Program-made: the position numbers and the translations under genes
Assembly (NCBI GenBank): GCA_945883495.1
Contig: CAMCXS010000058.1
Location: 1 to 38,275, forward strand
DNA length: 38,275 nucleotides
Direction: 5' to 3'
Origin: Akkermansia muciniphila
GTDB taxonomy: Bacteria > Verrucomicrobiota > Verrucomicrobiia > Verrucomicrobiales > DEV007
Part shown: piece by piece, positions 13,334 to 21,666 of the stretch
Numbering within the stretch: position 1 is the first letter of the stretch
Layout of the letters: each line of letters opens with the position of its first letter
Notes under the pieces: generated by a model
Seen by the model: only the letters and a program-made list of their open reading frames with translations
What the model was told of the DNA's origin: nothing
Databases searched by the model: none

Positions 13334-14983
13334 TCAGGCCGCGCCCGATTTTACTTTCCGCGCGGCATGGGGGTGGTTGGAAACGGGCTCGTGGTCTTCG
13401 AGACCGGCAATGATGAGTTCGCGGTTCTCGAGTTTCCAATCGTGAGCCATTTCCTCAAGCTTGCGGATGCAGGAGTGGTCCACCAGCTTCGTGTTCTTGA
13501 GGCAAACCACCACTTTGGGAGCGTGCTTCATTTGCAAAAGGAGGGAGCGAATCCCCAGCCAGTTGCTAAACACCGCCGCTTTGTGGACGCGGACGACCTG
13601 AGCGTCGTCCTCCTCCAGAACCTCCGTGTGGGGAATCAGAAGGCGGTGAGGCGGGATTCCCGAGCAAACATGGAGAAAGAGCTTGGCCAGGATCCCAGCA
13701 GCGATACCGATGAGAAGGTCGGTCGCCAGGGTGACGATCATGGTGACAACAAAGACCAAGAGCTGAGCTATGCCCACCTCCCACATGTGGAAGAACTCCT
13801 TGGGAGAGGCGAGGTTGTAACCGGTAAACACGAGCATTGCGGCGAGCGCGGCGAGAGGAATCGTGTTCAGGAGCCATGGAACGCTGGCCACCAAGGCGAG
13901 GAGGAAGAAGCCGTGCCAAAAGTTGGCGAACCGCGTCTTAGCACCGTTGTTGCGATTGGCCGAGGAGCGGACGATCTCGCTGATCATCGGCAAACCGCCA
14001 ACAAAGGCGCTCAAGGTATTGGCTGCCCCAACGGCCAAAAGGTCCCGGTTCATGTTGCTGCGCCGTTGGTAGGGGTCGAGTAGATCGATGGCCTTGGCAC
14101 TGAGCAATGATTCTAGACTGCCGACCAGGGCAAACATGATGATCCATTTGATGCTCTCGGGGCTGGAAATCACCGAGAAATCCGGGTGCGCGATCGCGCT
14201 GAGCATATTGCCGGGCAACGCGACGAGATACTTCGGCCCAACCTCAAAGTCATGACCGGCGAAATGGTAGAGATGTTGGTGGGAGATATCGAAATAGATC
14301 CCAAGCGGCGTGGCAACCAAGAGCACCAGCATGGGACCTGGAATGGCTTGGAACCACTTCAACTTCACCAACGGCCGCAGAAAGAGGATGAGGAGACTGA
14401 TGCCGCCAATCAGGGCGATCTCGGGGTTCAGGTGCATGATGGAGTGAGGAATCTCCGAGATCAGCTCCAACGGTTCCTTCGCGTGCGGGGCCACTCCAAG
14501 GGCGATGTGCGCCTGCTTTGAGATGATGATCACGCCGATGGCGGCCAACATGCCATGCACGGCGGCAACGGGAAAGAATTCCGCCAGCGTGCCAGCGCGA
14601 AACATTCCGAAGAGGATCTGAATAACACCGGCAACCATCCCGACGGCCAGGGCACGATGATAGCCCGTGGTGGGATCACCCTCTCCCAACGCTTGGACGG
14701 CTCCGAGGACGATCACGATCATCCCCGCGGCAGGGCCTTTGATCGTCAGTTCCGAGTTGGAAAAGAACGGGGTCAACAAACCTCCGATCACCGCCGTAAA
14801 GATTCCCGCGATCGGCGGGAAACCGCTCGCGATGGCGATCCCAAGGCAGAGAGGAAGTGCGATGAGGAATACCAAAAAGCCCGACAGAATGTCTTTCTTG
14901 AAGTATTGAACGAATCCAGGCAAATTCCCTACCGGCTTGGGACCGGGTGGAGATACGGGATGGCCGTGAGCGTCTGTTGACAT
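13334..14983 (-). CDS. SulP-family anion transporter with STAS domain
   Basis: A 549-residue SLC26/SulP membrane transporter with roughly 11-14 helices and a cytoplasmic C-terminal STAS domain (about 440-530, including [20 protein letters not shown]). Family motifs include [37 protein letters not shown] and the strongly conserved [20 protein letters not shown] / [13 protein letters not shown] and [20 protein letters not shown]. SulP proteins carry sulfate, bicarbonate or other anions. It is divergent from dabA, an inorganic carbon uptake gene, with 175 bp between them. Bicarbonate is therefore a reasonable guess but sulfate cannot be excluded. Start is ATG at 14983; the first 20 residues are Pro/Gly-rich. 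Confidence 0.92.
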
Positions 14984-15158: not shown

Positions 15159-18074
15159 GTGTCCGATCCGACTTCGATACACGCACGAGTGACGGGGGCC
15201 GCCTCTGGCCGGGCCGAAAGGCTTCGCGAGGCGATTCATCACGCCGCGCACCTTTTGCCTGCTCAAGGCCCAATTGGAGTCTTCGTGCATCACAACACCC
15301 TCCACGCGTTTCAACACTTGCCCTTTGAGGAGGCGGTGGTGAAGGCGGCCTCGATTTTTGGCAGCCAGCCGTTCCTGGCCGAAGCTGCCTACCGGCGCGA
15401 ACTTCAACGGGGGCGCATCGTGGAGGAGGACATCGCCGCGATTCTTGCTGGCGGTGAACCTCTCACGATTTGGGAGGAAGGTGGGCTGACTCGGAGAGCG
15501 CTGCGTCACGAGGTCCTGCTCCGGGGTCTGCGCCCCATTGACCCATGCAGCATCGAGTGGAACTTGCGCGACGGCAACTGGCTCCGGACATTTCGGCGAG
15601 ACTTGAGTGATTCGGCCAAATCCTCGCTCGCGGGTGACCTGCCCCGCAAGCTCTGGGCGGGCATCGAAACGAAGTTGGAGGTGTTCAAACCAGCTTCTCC
15701 GGCGTCGGAACGAGTACGAAAAGAGGGGATCGAGGCTGCCCACGACATCATCCATCCGGTGCTGATTCGTTTGGCGGCGGCCTTCCTGGATCAAGGCATT
15801 GCTTACTGGCCGATGCCGCTGCGAGAGACTGGATTATGGAAAGCTGCGCTGGCCATTCTCGATCAGTCGGCATGCTTCATGCCGGCTGGTCTGGAAGGGT
15901 TTCGCAACATTGTCCATGAGTTCCGGCAAGTGCCCGGCTCGCACGAGGATCGAATCATGGGGCTACTCGATCGTCTAGGAGTTCAGGAGGAGTCTTGGGG
16001 GATCTTTCTCCAACGAGAACTGCTTGCGTTGCCAGGTTGGGCAGGGTTGATCCATCGCCTGGAAGAGGAACCTGCGCTGGCTCCTCATGTGCGGCTACCC
16101 TTCTCGTTGCGGGAGTATCTGGCATTACGTCTGTTGCTTCTCCTTGGCGCGACGAGGAATCTGAGCAGCCGATCTGGTGAATCGGACATTGAGTTCTCGA
16201 GGGAGGTCGTGGACCGCCAGGGCTATTGTGATACGGCGCTGATTTTTGAGGTGGCGCAACTCTGTGGTCTCTCCACTGGGCGAATTGAGGCGATGCCCAG
16301 CGCAGTTTTCTTGGCGTTTGTCGCGGAGGTTAGGGCAATTGACGAGCTTGAGCGGCGGTGGCTGCTCCATTTGGCCTACGAGCGGCGGCATGAACGGCAG
16401 ATTTTGCTTCCTTTGGCCAAGTACCGGGCCGTGGCCATGTCACGTGGTGCGGCTTCGTCCTCGCGACTCGCCGCCCAGGTCATCTTCTGTATTGATGAGC
16501 GCGAAGAATCGATCAGGCGCCACCTAGAAGAAGTTGATCCGGATATTGAGACTTTGGGTGCTGCGGGGTTCTTTGGCGTGGCGGTCGACTATACAGGAAT
16601 CGATGACGCTCGTGGCGCGGCGCTCTGTCCGGTGGTGGTGAAGCCTCAAAATCAAGTGGTGGAGAAGGCGATTGGCGATCATACCGGTCTGCAATCTCGA
16701 CGCCGTGCCTTGCGGAAACTTTGGGCGCGGATGTTCCGGCAGAATTATGTGGCAAGCCGGACCTTGGTTCGCGGATGGTTGAGCACGGCAACCTTGGGAT
16801 TCTTATCGCTGTTCCCCCTGACCTTCCGGCTTCTCAATCCGCTGGCCTGCGCGAGAATTTCCGCTTGGCTCAATGCAGCCTTTTTGCCGGTGCCACGCAC
16901 GGAGTTAACGTTTGAGCGAGCCGACGAAGAGGGGCGGATAGCTGCCGGTGGATTGCTTCAAGGCTTCTCGCTTGAGGAAAAGGTGAACTGCGTGGCGAGT
17001 ATCCTAAAGCCAGCCGGTTTGCACAGGGACATCGCTCGTCTGGTGGTGGTGCTCGGCCATGGATCGACGAGTCTGAACAATCCCTTCGAATCCGCTTATG
17101 ATTGTGGCGCTTGTGGTGGGCGCCACGGCGGGCCCAACGCGCGTCTATTCTCTGCGATGGCGAATCATCCGAAGGTGCGGGAGGGGCTCTTGGCCCGGGG
17201 CATCGTGATCCCGGCGGATACGTGGTTTCTCGGCGGTTATCACGATACCTGTAGCGATGAGATCAAGCTGTTCGATCTGGAGCTTCTTCCTGAAGGTCAT
17301 CGCGCCGACGTCAACCGGGTGCGGGAGTCGTTGGACGAAGCCAGGGCGCGGAGTGCGCATGAGCGGACGCGCCGGTTTGAGGCGGCCTCTCCGCAATTGA
17401 CGTTCCAGCAAGCGTTGCGGCACGTGCAAGAGCGCTCCGAGCATTTGGGTGAGCCCCGGCCTGAGTACGGACATTGCACCAACGCGGTCTGTATCGTAGG
17501 GAGGCGTTCCACGACTCGTGGCTTGTTCTTAGACCGCCGCTCCTTCCTCGTATCGTATGACGCCACCAAGGATCCCACCGACGAAGGGCTCAGCAGGGTT
17601 CTCGGGGCAGTGACGCCAGTTTGTGCGGGGATTAACTTGGAGTATTACTTCTCTTCCGTGGACAACGAGCGGTATGGCTGCGGCACGAAGCTTCCCCACA
17701 ACATTACCGGCTTGGTGGGAGTGATGAATGGCTTTCAGAGCGATCTGAGAACGGGACTGCCCCTGCAGACGGTGGAGATTCATGAACCCGTACGGATTCT
17801 CTTCGTGGTAGAGTCGACGCCAATACGGGTGCTCTCGACGATGCGAGCCAATCCGCAGCTCCATGAGTTTCTTCACAACCGGTGGATTCGCTTGGCGGCG
17901 CTCGATCCGTTCAGCGGTGAAATTCACGTCTACCGGGACGGTGTGTTTGAAGTTCTGCAGGTCGACGACTCCCCTCTACCCGAGGCTCCCTCGTCGCTGG
18001 CATGGTATGGCGGCAAGTCGGAGCATCTTCCCTTGGCAAGAATTCATGCCGGAGGGATCACGAACGCTGCCTAG
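15159..18074 (+). CDS. dabA: DabA, DUF2309 subunit of the DAB inorganic carbon transporter
   Basis: A 971-residue DUF2309 protein, the large peripheral subunit of the DAB complex. DAB complexes are thought to couple membrane ion flow to one-way hydration of CO2 to bicarbonate. The zinc site resembles that of carbonic anhydrases. Candidate ligands here are C444 and D446 (FCIDEREESIRRHLEE), H634 (LGHGSTSLNN) and C649 (YDCGACGGRHGGPNAR). The 2-residue and 15-residue spacings match those of the characterised Halothiobacillus DabA ligands (C351, D353, H524, C539). The N-terminus (GVFVHHNTLHAFQHLPFE) is also typical. The start is GTG 15159. It is larger than the roughly 830-residue sulfur-oxidiser form. 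Only one base separates it from dabB. Confidence 0.95.
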   Translation: MSDPTSIHARVTGAASGRAERLREAIHHAAHLLPAQGPIGVFVHHNTLHAFQHLPFEEAVVKAASIFGSQPFLAEAAYRRELQRGRIVEEDIAAILAGGEPLTIWEEGGLTRRALRHEVLLRGLRPIDPCSIEWNLRDGNWLRTFRRDLSDSAKSSLAGDLPRKLWAGIETKLEVFKPASPASERVRKEGIEAAHDIIHPVLIRLAAAFLDQGIAYWPMPLRETGLWKAALAILDQSACFMPAGLEGFRNIVHEFRQVPGSHEDRIMGLLDRLGVQEESWGIFLQRELLALPGWAGLIHRLEEEPALAPHVRLPFSLREYLALRLLLLLGATRNLSSRSGESDIEFSREVVDRQGYCDTALIFEVAQLCGLSTGRIEAMPSAVFLAFVAEVRAIDELERRWLLHLAYERRHERQILLPLAKYRAVAMSRGAASSSRLAAQVIFCIDEREESIRRHLEEVDPDIETLGAAGFFGVAVDYTGIDDARGAALCPVVVKPQNQVVEKAIGDHTGLQSRRRALRKLWARMFRQNYVASRTLVRGWLSTATLGFLSLFPLTFRLLNPLACARISAWLNAAFLPVPRTELTFERADEEGRIAAGGLLQGFSLEEKVNCVASILKPAGLHRDIARLVVVLGHGSTSLNNPFESAYDCGACGGRHGGPNARLFSAMANHPKVREGLLARGIVIPADTWFLGGYHDTCSDEIKLFDLELLPEGHRADVNRVRESLDEARARSAHERTRRFEAASPQLTFQQALRHVQERSEHLGEPRPEYGHCTNAVCIVGRRSTTRGLFLDRRSFLVSYDATKDPTDEGLSRVLGAVTPVCAGINLEYYFSSVDNERYGCGTKLPHNITGLVGVMNGFQSDLRTGLPLQTVEIHEPVRILFVVESTPIRVLSTMRANPQLHEFLHNRWIRLAALDPFSGEIHVYRDGVFEVLQVDDSPLPEAPSSLAWYGGKSEHLPLARIHAGGITNAA

Positions 18075-18075
18075 T

Positions 18076-19470
18076 ATGGATATCGGACTCAACGGACAGA
18101 TCTTGGTAGGCCTGGTCATCGCGCCAGCTCTCTTGTTTTTGGCACTCGCCGTCTTTTGGCTTCTGGGCTGGAAGGGGCAAGAAAAGATCGTATGCGCGCT
18201 GACCGGATTCCTGTTTCTGGGGTTGACCCTCGGGACGGGAGTGCTCGCGTTCAGGATGGTCAGGCACCGTCTGCCCAGCGTATCGGTGGATTTAGGGAAT
18301 TGGTTCGCGATCGGTGACTATGGTTTCCCGTTGCGATTGACCGTTGATCGCCTGTCCCTGCCGATGGTGGGCTTGACGGTTGTTTTGGTGGGCCTAGTCG
18401 GCAAGTTTTCCACGCTCTACCTACACCGTGATCCAGGGCATCTTCGCTTTTTTCTGCTGATTCAGCTTTATGCGTTTGGCTCGCTGTTGCTGTTCACGGC
18501 GGGATCCATTGATTTGTTGATGGCCGGCTGGGAGCTGGTGGGGATCACCTCCGTTCTCCTCATCGGATTCTTTAGTTATCGCCGGGAACCGGTGCTCAAT
18601 GCGATTCGCGTGTTCGCTACGTACCGCCTCGCGGACATCTGTATCCTGGTGGCCGTCTTTCTTGCGCATCACTGGTATGGCAGTGGGCTCTGGAGCGCGC
18701 TGATTACTGGAGAGTGGCCGATGCAAAAATCCGCTGTGGGCGGACCTGAGTTGAATATCCTCGGCGTGTTGCTTGTTTTGGCCGCGTGTGGCAAGTCATC
18801 TCAGGGGCCATTTTTTGGCTGGTTGCCCCGAGCTATGGAGGGACCGACGCCGTCGAGCGCCATTTTTTATGGTGCGATCTCGGTCCACGCGGGGGCGTAT
18901 CTGGTGTTGCGGATTGAACCTTTGCTGGAGAGCGCGCCCGTGGCTCGTTATGTTTTGATGGCGATTGGGATCTCCACGGCGGTGGTGGCGACGCTGATTC
19001 ACCGCACCTGCACCGATGTAAAGACGGGGCTTTCTTACGCTTCCATGACGCAGCTTGCGGTAATCTTCACGGAAGTGAGCTTGGGCTGGACGATGGTGGC
19101 GATGCTCCATATTGCTGGGCACGTCGCGGTGCGGACGGCGCAATTTCTCCGCGCGCCATCCATGCTTCATGAGTATCGCCAGCTGCACGCGGCATCAGGT
19201 GGGCAGATTGGTGAAACCGGCGAGCATTACGAGGCGTTGGTGCCGCACAAGCTGCAGTTATGGTTATACGGTCTGGGCCTGGATCGGGGACACTATGATG
19301 CCATTGTGGATCGCCTGGTAATTGCGCCCATGGTTTGCCTGTCCGCGGTTTTGAATCGGATCGAGCCTACCTGGATGGGCGGATCGAGTCCGGCGAAAGC
19401 ATCCAAATCAGAAGCTGAGGAAGTGGCCGGGGACCTAGTAACTGAGAATTCCCATGACGCACCTGTCTGA
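18076..19470 (+). CDS. dabB: DabB, NuoL/MrpA-like membrane subunit of the DAB transporter
   Basis: A 464-residue polytopic membrane protein of the proton-pumping antiporter family (NuoL/NuoM/MrpA). It begins at ATG 18076, one base after the dabA stop; the frame is open further upstream inside dabA but that part is a shadow. Key channel residues are kept: the TM5 glutamate in AGWELVG (E153), a lysine in AACGKSSQGPFFGWLPRAME (K240), PTPSSA and H271. The tail after residue 400 is hydrophilic. DabB forms the membrane channel that energises DabA. Its end overlaps the next gene by 17 bp. Confidence 0.93.
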   Translation: MDIGLNGQILVGLVIAPALLFLALAVFWLLGWKGQEKIVCALTGFLFLGLTLGTGVLAFRMVRHRLPSVSVDLGNWFAIGDYGFPLRLTVDRLSLPMVGLTVVLVGLVGKFSTLYLHRDPGHLRFFLLIQLYAFGSLLLFTAGSIDLLMAGWELVGITSVLLIGFFSYRREPVLNAIRVFATYRLADICILVAVFLAHHWYGSGLWSALITGEWPMQKSAVGGPELNILGVLLVLAACGKSSQGPFFGWLPRAMEGPTPSSAIFYGAISVHAGAYLVLRIEPLLESAPVARYVLMAIGISTAVVATLIHRTCTDVKTGLSYASMTQLAVIFTEVSLGWTMVAMLHIAGHVAVRTAQFLRAPSMLHEYRQLHAASGGQIGETGEHYEALVPHKLQLWLYGLGLDRGHYDAIVDRLVIAPMVCLSAVLNRIEPTWMGGSSPAKASKSEAEEVAGDLVTENSHDAPV

Positions 19471-20881
19471 AGCCATTCCGCACCTCAGTTTGCCGCTCCT
19501 CAGTGCCACTCTGTCGTTTACGATGGCGGCCTGTGTCTTGATCCTAGTGCTGGGGGGGAGTGGTGCCACCCGGGCACTGGCTGTCCTCTGTCAGCTTAGC
19601 TCAATTGGCTTTCTGACCGGCGCTGCTTGGTTGCGCGCTCGATCGGGTCACAACGAGTTGCTCGATCCATTGTGGCATCAGGTGAAGGTCGATTCCGTGA
19701 ATGAAGCCATTTTGGTGCTTTATGGTGTGTTGACGCTGACGATTCTTCTCTTGGCGCCGCGCAGGGACGCGACCGGAGGCTTCCTAGTCGGCGTGTTGTT
19801 CTTGTTTGCGGCCACCGTGTTTACCTATGGGGCGACCAGTGTCGCTGGCTTCGGGGCGGGTTGGGTGCTGAGCGCTCTGCCGTTTGCCCTGGGTTGTTTC
19901 CGGACTCCCGGGGTGGCACATTCGCCGGCGCTGTGGATTGCGGTGGCCATTAGCGGCGTGGCGTTGATGGGAGCGGCCGGGCTGATGGGGACCTCGGGGA
20001 TGGACTTTAGCCATGCCAACGGATTGGCGATGGCGCTCTTGCTGCTGGCGGTGGCATTGAGAAAAGGGATTTTCCCAGTCCATTCCTGGTTGGCCCAGGC
20101 TTTCGAGAGAGGGTCTTTATTGCCAACTGTGCTCTTTTACAACGGCCACTGCGGTGCGCTCCTTCTGGTGCGGGCGGAATCGACTCACTTGGAAGCGGTC
20201 GTTCAGCAAATGCTGCATTATATCTGTTGGGGGGCGCTCCTTACCGCTCTCTACACATCGTTTTTGATGATCGCCGAGAGAAAGCCACGGCGCCTCTTGG
20301 CAATGCTTTGCGTCAGCCAAGCATCCTTCATTCTCGCAGGACTTTCGAGCGGGAGCCATTACGGCATCACTGGGGCGCTCATTCATTGGCTAGTGGTGGC
20401 CGCTGCATCGACCGGGCTGGTGAGCGTTTACCGTGCACTGGAGGTTCGCTGTGCGGGAGTGGAACGGAGCACCGAGGGACACCTAGGTCTTGGGGCGCAC
20501 GCGCCTCGGCTCGCAGTCTTTTTCCTTGTGTGCGGCCTCGCTTTGGTAGGACTTCCGGGAACTTTGGGTTACTCCGCGGAGGATCTCCTCTTTCATGGCG
20601 CATTGGAGTCGCAACCGGTGATCGGCGTTGCACTTCACTTGGCGACCGCCTTGAATGCGATTCACCTGTTCCGGCTCTTCTCCCGCCTATTCCTGGGCCG
20701 ACTGGCGTCAGAGGTCGCCGAGATCCCCGACGCGCTGTTCCGGGAGCGTCTTCCGCTCACCATGTGCCTGCTTTTTTTGGTGGTTGGTGGTTTGATTCCA
20801 GCGCCCATCCTGCGTCACCGAGAGGCGGTCGCTCAGCGAATTCATGCCGCGCTGGAGCATGAGGCGGCACAAAGTCATTGA
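19454..20881 (+). CDS. second NuoM/NuoN-like membrane subunit in the dab operon
   Basis: A 475-residue membrane protein with about 12-14 helices, overlapping dabB by 17 bp. It belongs to the same antiporter-like superfamily, as shown by VALRKGIFPVHSWLAQAFE (with K204) followed by GSLLPTVLFYNGHCGALLL, and LIAERKPRRLLAMLCVSQAS. At the position of the conserved TM5 glutamate the sequence is GAGWVLSALP, with V138 instead of Glu. This suggests an altered or inactive ion channel half. It is not the usual second DAB gene. It could be an accessory subunit of the DAB complex or part of a separate two-subunit channel. Confidence 0.8.
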   Translation: MTHLSEAIPHLSLPLLSATLSFTMAACVLILVLGGSGATRALAVLCQLSSIGFLTGAAWLRARSGHNELLDPLWHQVKVDSVNEAILVLYGVLTLTILLLAPRRDATGGFLVGVLFLFAATVFTYGATSVAGFGAGWVLSALPFALGCFRTPGVAHSPALWIAVAISGVALMGAAGLMGTSGMDFSHANGLAMALLLLAVALRKGIFPVHSWLAQAFERGSLLPTVLFYNGHCGALLLVRAESTHLEAVVQQMLHYICWGALLTALYTSFLMIAERKPRRLLAMLCVSQASFILAGLSSGSHYGITGALIHWLVVAAASTGLVSVYRALEVRCAGVERSTEGHLGLGAHAPRLAVFFLVCGLALVGLPGTLGYSAEDLLFHGALESQPVIGVALHLATALNAIHLFRLFSRLFLGRLASEVAEIPDALFRERLPLTMCLLFLVVGGLIPAPILRHREAVAQRIHAALEHEAAQSH

Positions 20882-20910: not shown

Positions 20911-21666
20911 ATGAAACGTAAGGTTTGCCTGCTGTTGGTGGTCACCTGCCTCACTTCCGTGTCGGCCCAGACTCCGACGAAGATCACAGCGGACAACAAC
21001 AACGTGTGGCTCAACTACGTCGGCGATCACCCGCTCGGCGAAGGGCCGTGGGGGTTGCACTTGGAATTGCAGAATCGCCGCTCGGACTGGGGCGGGGACT
21101 GGCAGCAGGTTCTCTTCCGCCCCGGCATCAATTATCAGTACAGCCCTTCCGTTCGCTTCAGTGCGGGCTATGCCTACGTGCACACCTTTCCGAACGGTGA
21201 GTATCCGGCGGCGGCGGATTTTCCTGAGCACCGCGCCTGGGAACAAGTCACGCAGAAATTTCAGTTCCTAGGGCTCGATTGGCAGCAACGGCTCCGTTTG
21301 GAGCAGCGCTGGATTGGTGAGGTCGGCTTGGATGACAACGGTGACTCCGAGCTCTTAGACTGGCGCGCCGAGAACCGGGGCCGGTACATGCTGCGCACGG
21401 AGATCCCGCTGACGGACGACAAAAAGAACTATGTCGCCATTTGGGACGAGGTGTTTCTCAACTTCGGCGGCAACGTGCTCGGCAATACCTTCGATCAGAA
21501 TCGGGCCTTCGTTGGCTATGGCCGCAAGCTCGGCGATTTTCTCCGATTGGAAACCGGATACATGGAGCAGACCGTGCAGCGCCGGGGCGGGCTGTTTCAA
21601 GAGAATGACCACACCATCGCCGTGTGGCTGATGTCCTCCGCTCCGTTGAATGTTTCCCATCCGTGA
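20911..21666 (+). CDS. DUF2490 outer-membrane beta-barrel protein
   Basis: A 251-residue exported protein. The signal peptide is VCLLLVVTCLTSVSA, cut before QTPTK. The mature part has the DUF2490 pattern: alternating strands (LHLELQNRRSD, VLFRPGINYQYSPSVRFSAGYAY), a repeated R-x-R-x-EQR motif (LRLEQRWIGE) and a FDQNRAFVGYGRKLGDFLRLETGYM ending (written here as FDQNRAFVGYG and LRLETGYMEQ). Members are thought to be small outer-membrane barrels of unknown function. The frame is open from TTG 20878 overlapping the previous stop, but ATG 20911 gives a proper signal peptide. It lies 29 bp behind the dab genes, so it is probably cotranscribed. Confidence 0.8.
   Translation: MKRKVCLLLVVTCLTSVSAQTPTKITADNNNVWLNYVGDHPLGEGPWGLHLELQNRRSDWGGDWQQVLFRPGINYQYSPSVRFSAGYAYVHTFPNGEYPAAADFPEHRAWEQVTQKFQFLGLDWQQRLRLEQRWIGEVGLDDNGDSELLDWRAENRGRYMLRTEIPLTDDKKNYVAIWDEVFLNFGGNVLGNTFDQNRAFVGYGRKLGDFLRLETGYMEQTVQRRGGLFQENDHTIAVWLMSSAPLNVSHP

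Follow-up and report, generated by a model that had tools for sequence, protein, structure and literature searches.

A conserved three-gene type of DAB locus with a predicted NuoM-like subunit encoded beside dabA and dabB

DAB2 of Halothiobacillus neapolitanus (DabA2–DabB2; PDB 9rd0) pairs a PF10070 subunit, which carries a Cys2His zinc site and an Asp-Arg dyad, with a PF00361 subunit whose TM1-11 are NuoL-like, and the locus described here has all of these elements in common with it. Shared features are also found in cyanobacterial NDH-1MS, in which NuoL-like and NuoM-like subunits serve CO2 hydration; its carbonic anhydrase (CA) subunit is CupA, which is unlike DabA. NDH-1MS is driven by electron transfer, whereas DAB2 is described as a vectorial CA driven by the proton motive force (PMF), with a probable exit half-channel made of DabB TM12-13 and a DabA finger bearing Glu444 (PMC13144422). 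DAB1 of H. neapolitanus has also been called a three-subunit system, although its third protein is a small hypothetical transmembrane protein (PMC13144422).

The gene layout studied here has been known since 2017 as COGNAT "clade C", in which ybcC (DabA) lies upstream of a nuoL homologue, often with genes for COG1008 (NuoM) and COG0659 (SulP). Exergonic pumping was proposed for it at a time when no link to function, residues or structure was available (PMC5700660). The locus has this arrangement, with dabA upstream of a nuoL homologue and with NuoM and SulP genes present. Compared with DAB2, it adds a NuoM-like third subunit, has dabA before dabB and encodes a DabB without TM12-15. It lacks the marks of the DAB2-type sublineage (finger Glu444, Leu658 and a 15-TM DabB without the TM5 Glu): Glu444 is absent, Leu658 is replaced by His and Ile151 by Glu. 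Further replacements are Ser356 by Glu, Lys347 by Arg and His260 by Tyr. The locus belongs to a real and conserved DAB variant that, judged by gene linkage, has three subunits; among the open-licence PMC papers searched, none was found that describes this mechanistic signature or ties the three-gene layout to DAB mechanism. Such operons may be treated in Desmarais 2019.

Linkage of the third gene to dabA and dabB

The window (the whole stretch of DNA that was analysed, 38,275 nucleotides of Akkermansia muciniphila contig CAMCXS010000058.1, assembly GCA_945883495.1) contains dabA and dabB and, after them, an antiporter-like third gene termed X here, all where a sequence-only reading had placed them (Table 1); open reading frame coordinates and Pfam matches agree. 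That reading also rightly described X as a Nuo-like gene overlapping dabB by 17 bp (PF00361, 84 bits). Its "normal dabB" one base after dabA is correct for the gap of one base but not for the gene, as DabB ends after TM11. As in other members of the DabA/DabB (DAC) superfamily, a PF10070 protein is encoded beside a PF00361 NuoL-like protein. The PF00361 match of dabB spans profile positions 6-227, with a PF00662 match in addition, and that of X spans positions 78-290. Elsewhere in the genome lie an additional two-gene dabB-dabA locus (contig C38) and a group of nuo L, M and N-like genes (contig C32), so X is not encoded with other nuo genes as expected of a complex I NuoM.

Table 1. Positions in the window of the three-gene locus, its neighbours and selected codons
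Feature	Position	Strand	Description
dabA	15159..18074	+	GTG start, 971 aa; beta-carbonic-anhydrase-like subunit; PF10070 E 7e-233; PDB 9rd0_A (DabA2) 2.2e-68
dabB	18076..19470	+	464 aa; NuoL-like TM1-11, without TM12-15; PF00361 2.1e-33, 116 bits
X	19454..20881	+	Third antiporter-like gene, 475 aa; predicted NuoM-like membrane subunit; PF00361 1e-23, 84.4 bits (cut-off 21.5)
SulP-family transporter	13334..14983	-	Divergent from dabA; PF00916 2.7e-64; recurrent neighbour of the three-gene DAB type
DUF2490 protein	20911..21666	+	PF10677 5e-47; frame opens at 20878, Met at 20911 chosen as start; follows X
DabA C444 (zinc) and D446, R448 next	16488..16496	+	C, D and R in 118/118 three-gene and 32/32 two-gene DabAs
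DabA finger hairpin region, residues 520-562	16716..16844	+	A544 at the DabA2 Glu444 position
DabA H634 and C649 (zinc)	17058..17105	+	In 118/118 three-gene DabAs
DabA H772	17472..17474	+	Aligned with DabA2 Leu658, where canonical beta-CAs have Gln or His
DabB E153	18532..18534	+	Complex I type TM5 glutamate
X E376-D377	20579..20584	+	Acidic TM12 pair; E376 aligned with the NuoM TM12 Glu; 377 acidic in 101/104

With X as query, matches were obtained in 8 of 95 genomes including the window's own, and in the other seven X lies beside dabA and dabB in the order A-B-X. Scanning named genomes with a DabA profile yielded 227 relatives, the best 80 of which were retained (from Verrucomicrobiota, Acidobacteriota, Elusimicrobiota, Armatimonadota and one Archangium). 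Because these were gathered with a profile of the three-gene-type DabA, only draws of the PF10070 family are unbiased; they had matches in 14 of 387 genomes of the window's own phylum, 5 of 297 Acidobacteriota and 45 of 174 Myxococcota, the last without the short contig fragments C41 and C47 of genome G822. Pseudomonadota, Bacillota and haloarchaea are represented solely by four plasmid records. One of these, Nitrobacter hamburgensis plasmid 1, holds two closely similar tandem clusters of dabB, a hypothetical gene, dabA and a P-II gene (L192). Pooling these sets and counting each protein once gave 123 window-type and 32 two-gene-type DabAs.

In this pooled set, which includes the best 80 of the 227 relatives, X or an X-like half accompanies dabB in all 111 testable window-type loci (109 with a separate X and 2 in which dabB has an X-like C-terminal half). 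The remaining 12 of the 123 window-type DabAs lie on contigs that stop within or just after dabB (6) or in or at most 0.3 kb after dabA (4), or have dabA apart (2). Conversely, X was found in none of the 27 two-gene loci, all with dabB upstream of dabA; the other 5 of the 32 two-gene-type DabAs have no dabB at the cut-off, on contigs that are short on the dabB side. In the family draws alone, X occurs with 40 of 43 three-gene-type DabAs and with 0 of 26 of the two-gene type, and the three exceptions are the two dabB-X-like joins (L184, L186) and a contig end (L185). The sequence-only reading had raised a three-subunit variant and named absence of the third gene from related dab loci as the finding that would speak against it. 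X is not absent from these loci, and its presence with dabA-dabB in every visible one makes the variant well supported by linkage. The contrast between the two types of loci also rejects X as a chance neighbour, and X as a stray nuo copy is rejected by the separate nuo genes on C32 and by its linkage to dabA-dabB in five phyla.

The two types are also separated by other features. In a tree of 79 DabAs (47 three-gene and 32 two-gene) they are parted by a single branch with SH-aLRT 100, and dabA precedes dabB in three-gene loci, whereas the order is reversed in the two-gene loci seen here. By predicted starts, 74 of 108 distinct dabB-X pairs overlap and 33 more are at most 30 bp apart. A SulP gene lies close to dabA in 83/104 three-gene loci that have 2.5 kb of upstream sequence and in none of the 26 such two-gene loci; a further 17 three-gene and 6 two-gene loci with less upstream sequence were dropped. 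The DUF2490 gene, which follows X in the window, adjoins SulP in many related loci, many Verrucomicrobia among them, and therefore moves with the cluster; its product is probably an associate rather than a core component.

Several loci depart from the common layout. The sister DabAs of L062 and L063 are not followed by dabB, and dabB-X is found intact or nearly so on L196 and L197. A dabA without dabB or X was rejected for both, because in both genomes dabB and X are adjacent on another contig, owing to either a split operon or a broken assembly. One MAG contig bears two dabA-dabB-X sets that face each other; the second, at L064 (13671-18871), is divergent and comes with SulP, and in its X the TM12 Glu is replaced by Met, with a Glu adjacent. 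L171 (genome G775, contig C104, 5018-14580), which branches off earliest among the three-gene rows of the DabA tree under midpoint rooting, has an upstream NuoM-like gene, a long-tailed DabB and two X-like genes, and thus up to four antiporter-like subunits.

Residue and helix changes in DabA and DabB

DabA residues were compared in DabA2 numbering in 118 three-gene and 32 two-gene sequences. In the alignment, neither type shows any change at C351, D353, R355, H524, C539 or H585, and the window's DabA has the zinc residues of the DAC superfamily (C351, H524, C539) together with the D353-R355 dyad. The four zinc ligands claimed in the sequence-only reading (C444, D446, H634, C649) do align with DabA2 C351, D353, H524 and C539; however, Asp353 is no zinc ligand in the DAB2 structure, where it holds the zinc-bound water together with Arg355 (PMC13144422). 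At the Asp590 equivalent, 116 of the 118 three-gene DabAs have an acidic residue, and 117 have Glu in place of Ser356.

Two positions distinguish the types almost completely. Position 658 is Leu in 32/32 two-gene DabAs and His in 117/118 three-gene DabAs. Leu658 has been reported as strictly conserved among 150 homologues, and in DAB2 a Leu658Gln variant supported growth without CO2 hydration in vitro, and Gly, Ala and Asn were tolerated (PMC13144422). It does not follow from His at this position alone that the enzyme is active. The finger Glu444, whose replacement by Ala or Gln (E444A, E444Q) abolishes DAB2 activity (PMC13144422), is present in 31/32 two-gene and 0/118 three-gene DabAs (with one gap). 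Another acidic residue occurs in the finger core of 24 of the 118; for 22 of these it is a Glu that precedes the position of Glu444 by seven residues. A one-for-one replacement of the finger Glu by Arg538 was rejected, since in the larger alignment it is Ala544 that falls in the column of this Glu, which R538 precedes by six residues.

The DabB model (pLDDT 87.8) has TM1-11 followed by shorter helices of lower confidence. Residues 6-429 superpose on positions 1-561 of E. coli NuoL (7p7e_L; Z 44.1, 410 aligned, 3.4 A), which is consistent with a DabB that has lost TM12-15 and still has part of the lateral-helix region; mycobacterial NuoL (8e9g_L) gives Z 49.2 over 413 aligned residues at 4.6 A. 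After TM11, 109 of 112 three-gene DabBs have 0-1 TM-like segments in the tail, whereas all 27 two-gene DabBs have 2-5. Truncation and the presence of X are not strictly tied, as L171 combines a long DabB tail with two X-like genes and one NuoM-like gene. In TM5, Ile151 is replaced by Glu in 112/112 three-gene and 0/27 two-gene DabBs; when a Glu was introduced at Ile151 of DAB2, the growth yield was halved (PMC13144422). The equivalents of R182, D185, K235, K310 and H339 are retained in 111-112 of the 112 three-gene DabBs and that of H343 in 105, with His260 replaced by Tyr in 112 and Lys347 by Arg in 111.

Predicted structure and conservation of X

X is confidently predicted to adopt a NuoM-like fold. 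Its model (pLDDT 93.7) matches NuoM, ND4 and NdhD chains throughout (for instance, 8e73_4M, ND4: Z 43.8, 454 aligned, 2.3 A, with many ties), and the PF00361 score above cut-off likewise places X among the NuoM/antiporter-like proteins. The best profile match is the NDH-1MS chain 6tjv_D, which structurally only ties with NuoM chains. The glutamate of TM12 (E407 in E. coli) is present as E376 and is Glu in 89 of 104 X proteins; of the 15 that differ, 10 have Gln. Conversely, the TM5 glutamate (E144 in E. coli) is V138 in the window and is lacking in 102 of 104, with both exceptions at L171. Where NuoM has its TM8 Lys, the aligned column of X holds Lys in 3/104 and His in 71/104, and the basic TM7 residue (R203) is Arg or Lys in 94/104.

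The two halves of X differ in conservation: about 1.6-2.0 bits per column over residues 1-200, 2.1-3.1 over residues 201-450 and 1.3 at the end. In the Myxococcota loci L173 and L177-L183, the match to the X profile starts only at position 75-125 of 464, and these proteins, L182 excepted, have 354-390 aa. Two further loci, L184 (8940-10763) and L186 (8980-10554), encode a near-complete short DabB, C-terminal motif included, whose chain continues into a segment that resembles the C-terminal half of X and has the "ED" motif. The tails score about 30 bits against the X profile, and that of L184 scores 8.7 bits against NuoL; among the two-gene DabB tails listed, none exceeds 1.3 bits to X. Judged from these profile scores, L184 and L186 are probably dabB-X fusions, although this reading is not firm, as antiporter subunits are all homologous and the tail could be DabB's own.

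Proposed proton path and alternative roles of X

The favoured reading, held to be moderately likely, is a PMF-driven vectorial CA in which X supplies the half of the proton path that DabB and the DabA finger do not provide. The locus would encode a complex of three subunits: DabA with a zinc site of beta-CA type, a shortened NuoL-like DabB and a NuoM-like X. PMF would push H+ through the conserved NuoL-like half-channel of DabB (R184/D187, E153/K240, K316, H345/H349, R353), the exit half would be provided by X, chiefly by its better conserved C-terminal half with E376/D377, and the H+ flux would drive one-way hydration of CO2 to HCO3- at DabA. Since DabB TM12-13 and the DabA finger are missing or changed and an X with an acidic TM12 is present, it is simplest to suppose that X serves as the exit half, either in place of TM12-14 or as a neighbour of DabB. 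For complex I, a proposal has been made in which a distal residue of one subunit acts upon the TM5/TM7 ion pair in the subunit that follows (PMC9271201). Together with this proposal, the TM5 Glu in DabB where X is present and its lack in X, the putative end subunit, suggest a DabB-X contact like that of NuoL and NuoM.

The rival that X is an independent second proton channel, with at least two ions moved by the complex for each CO2, would account for its predicted complete NuoM-like fold and for the TM7 base and TM12 acid that are mostly retained. It also agrees with the additional antiporter genes of L171 and with a COGNAT suggestion for operons with several membrane subunits (PMC5700660). 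Such a channel would, however, have to work almost always without the TM5 Glu and mostly with His in the TM8 Lys column, and with an N-terminal half that is less conserved, shorter in some Myxococcota and unseen in the two dabB-X-like joins; DabB, moreover, lacks the helices of the standard exit half. This rival is judged unlikely. That X is instead an accessory or assembly subunit, or an adaptation to pH or Na+ that is dispensable for CO2 hydration, is very improbable: two-gene DAB2 does function without X (PMC13144422), but X is linked to dabA-dabB across the whole sampled clade and is accompanied in its lineage by the switches in DabA and DabB.

A further rival holds that DabABX is no CO2 pump and forms with SulP a system for bicarbonate or another anion, or runs in the opposite sense. 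The recurrent SulP neighbour and the altered active site (H772, E449) fit this rival, as does the argument that MpsAB is a Na+/HCO3- symporter (PMC13144422). The need for a supply of dissolved inorganic carbon (DIC) is also not obvious in the window's own genome (96% complete), which gave no match to the RuBisCO large subunit and has two beta-CA matches. Nevertheless, the invariant zinc residues, Asp-Arg dyad and His585 equivalent and the nearly always acidic Asp590 equivalent argue against it, and it is considered quite improbable.

The favoured reading of X as the exit half can be extended, in a form that is tentative and somewhat unlikely, to a separate and more complex I-like class of vectorial CA. 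In this class, DabA with His772, a canonical beta-CA transition-state residue, might be an intrinsically competent CA, a relay from E376/D377 of X to E153/K240 of DabB would replace the finger Glu in setting directionality, and SulP would be a functional partner for HCO3-. Intrinsic competence need not be decided by His772 alone, given the behaviour of Leu658Gln in DAB2. The 2026 structure paper on DAB2 leaves open how the enzyme is silenced without membrane potential and how protons are coupled to catalysis (PMC13144422). The three-gene clade switches several suspected elements together (the finger Glu, Leu658 and the missing TM5 Glu) and adds a third subunit. It thus offers a ready comparative test set for the coupling mechanism and a possible bridge from DABs to complex I and NDH-1MS.

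In genome G000, assigned to the phylum of its nearest named relatives, a beta-CA domain was also seen at L203 (contig C4, 13630-14112), where it lies within an open frame of 750 aa that is perhaps a fusion.
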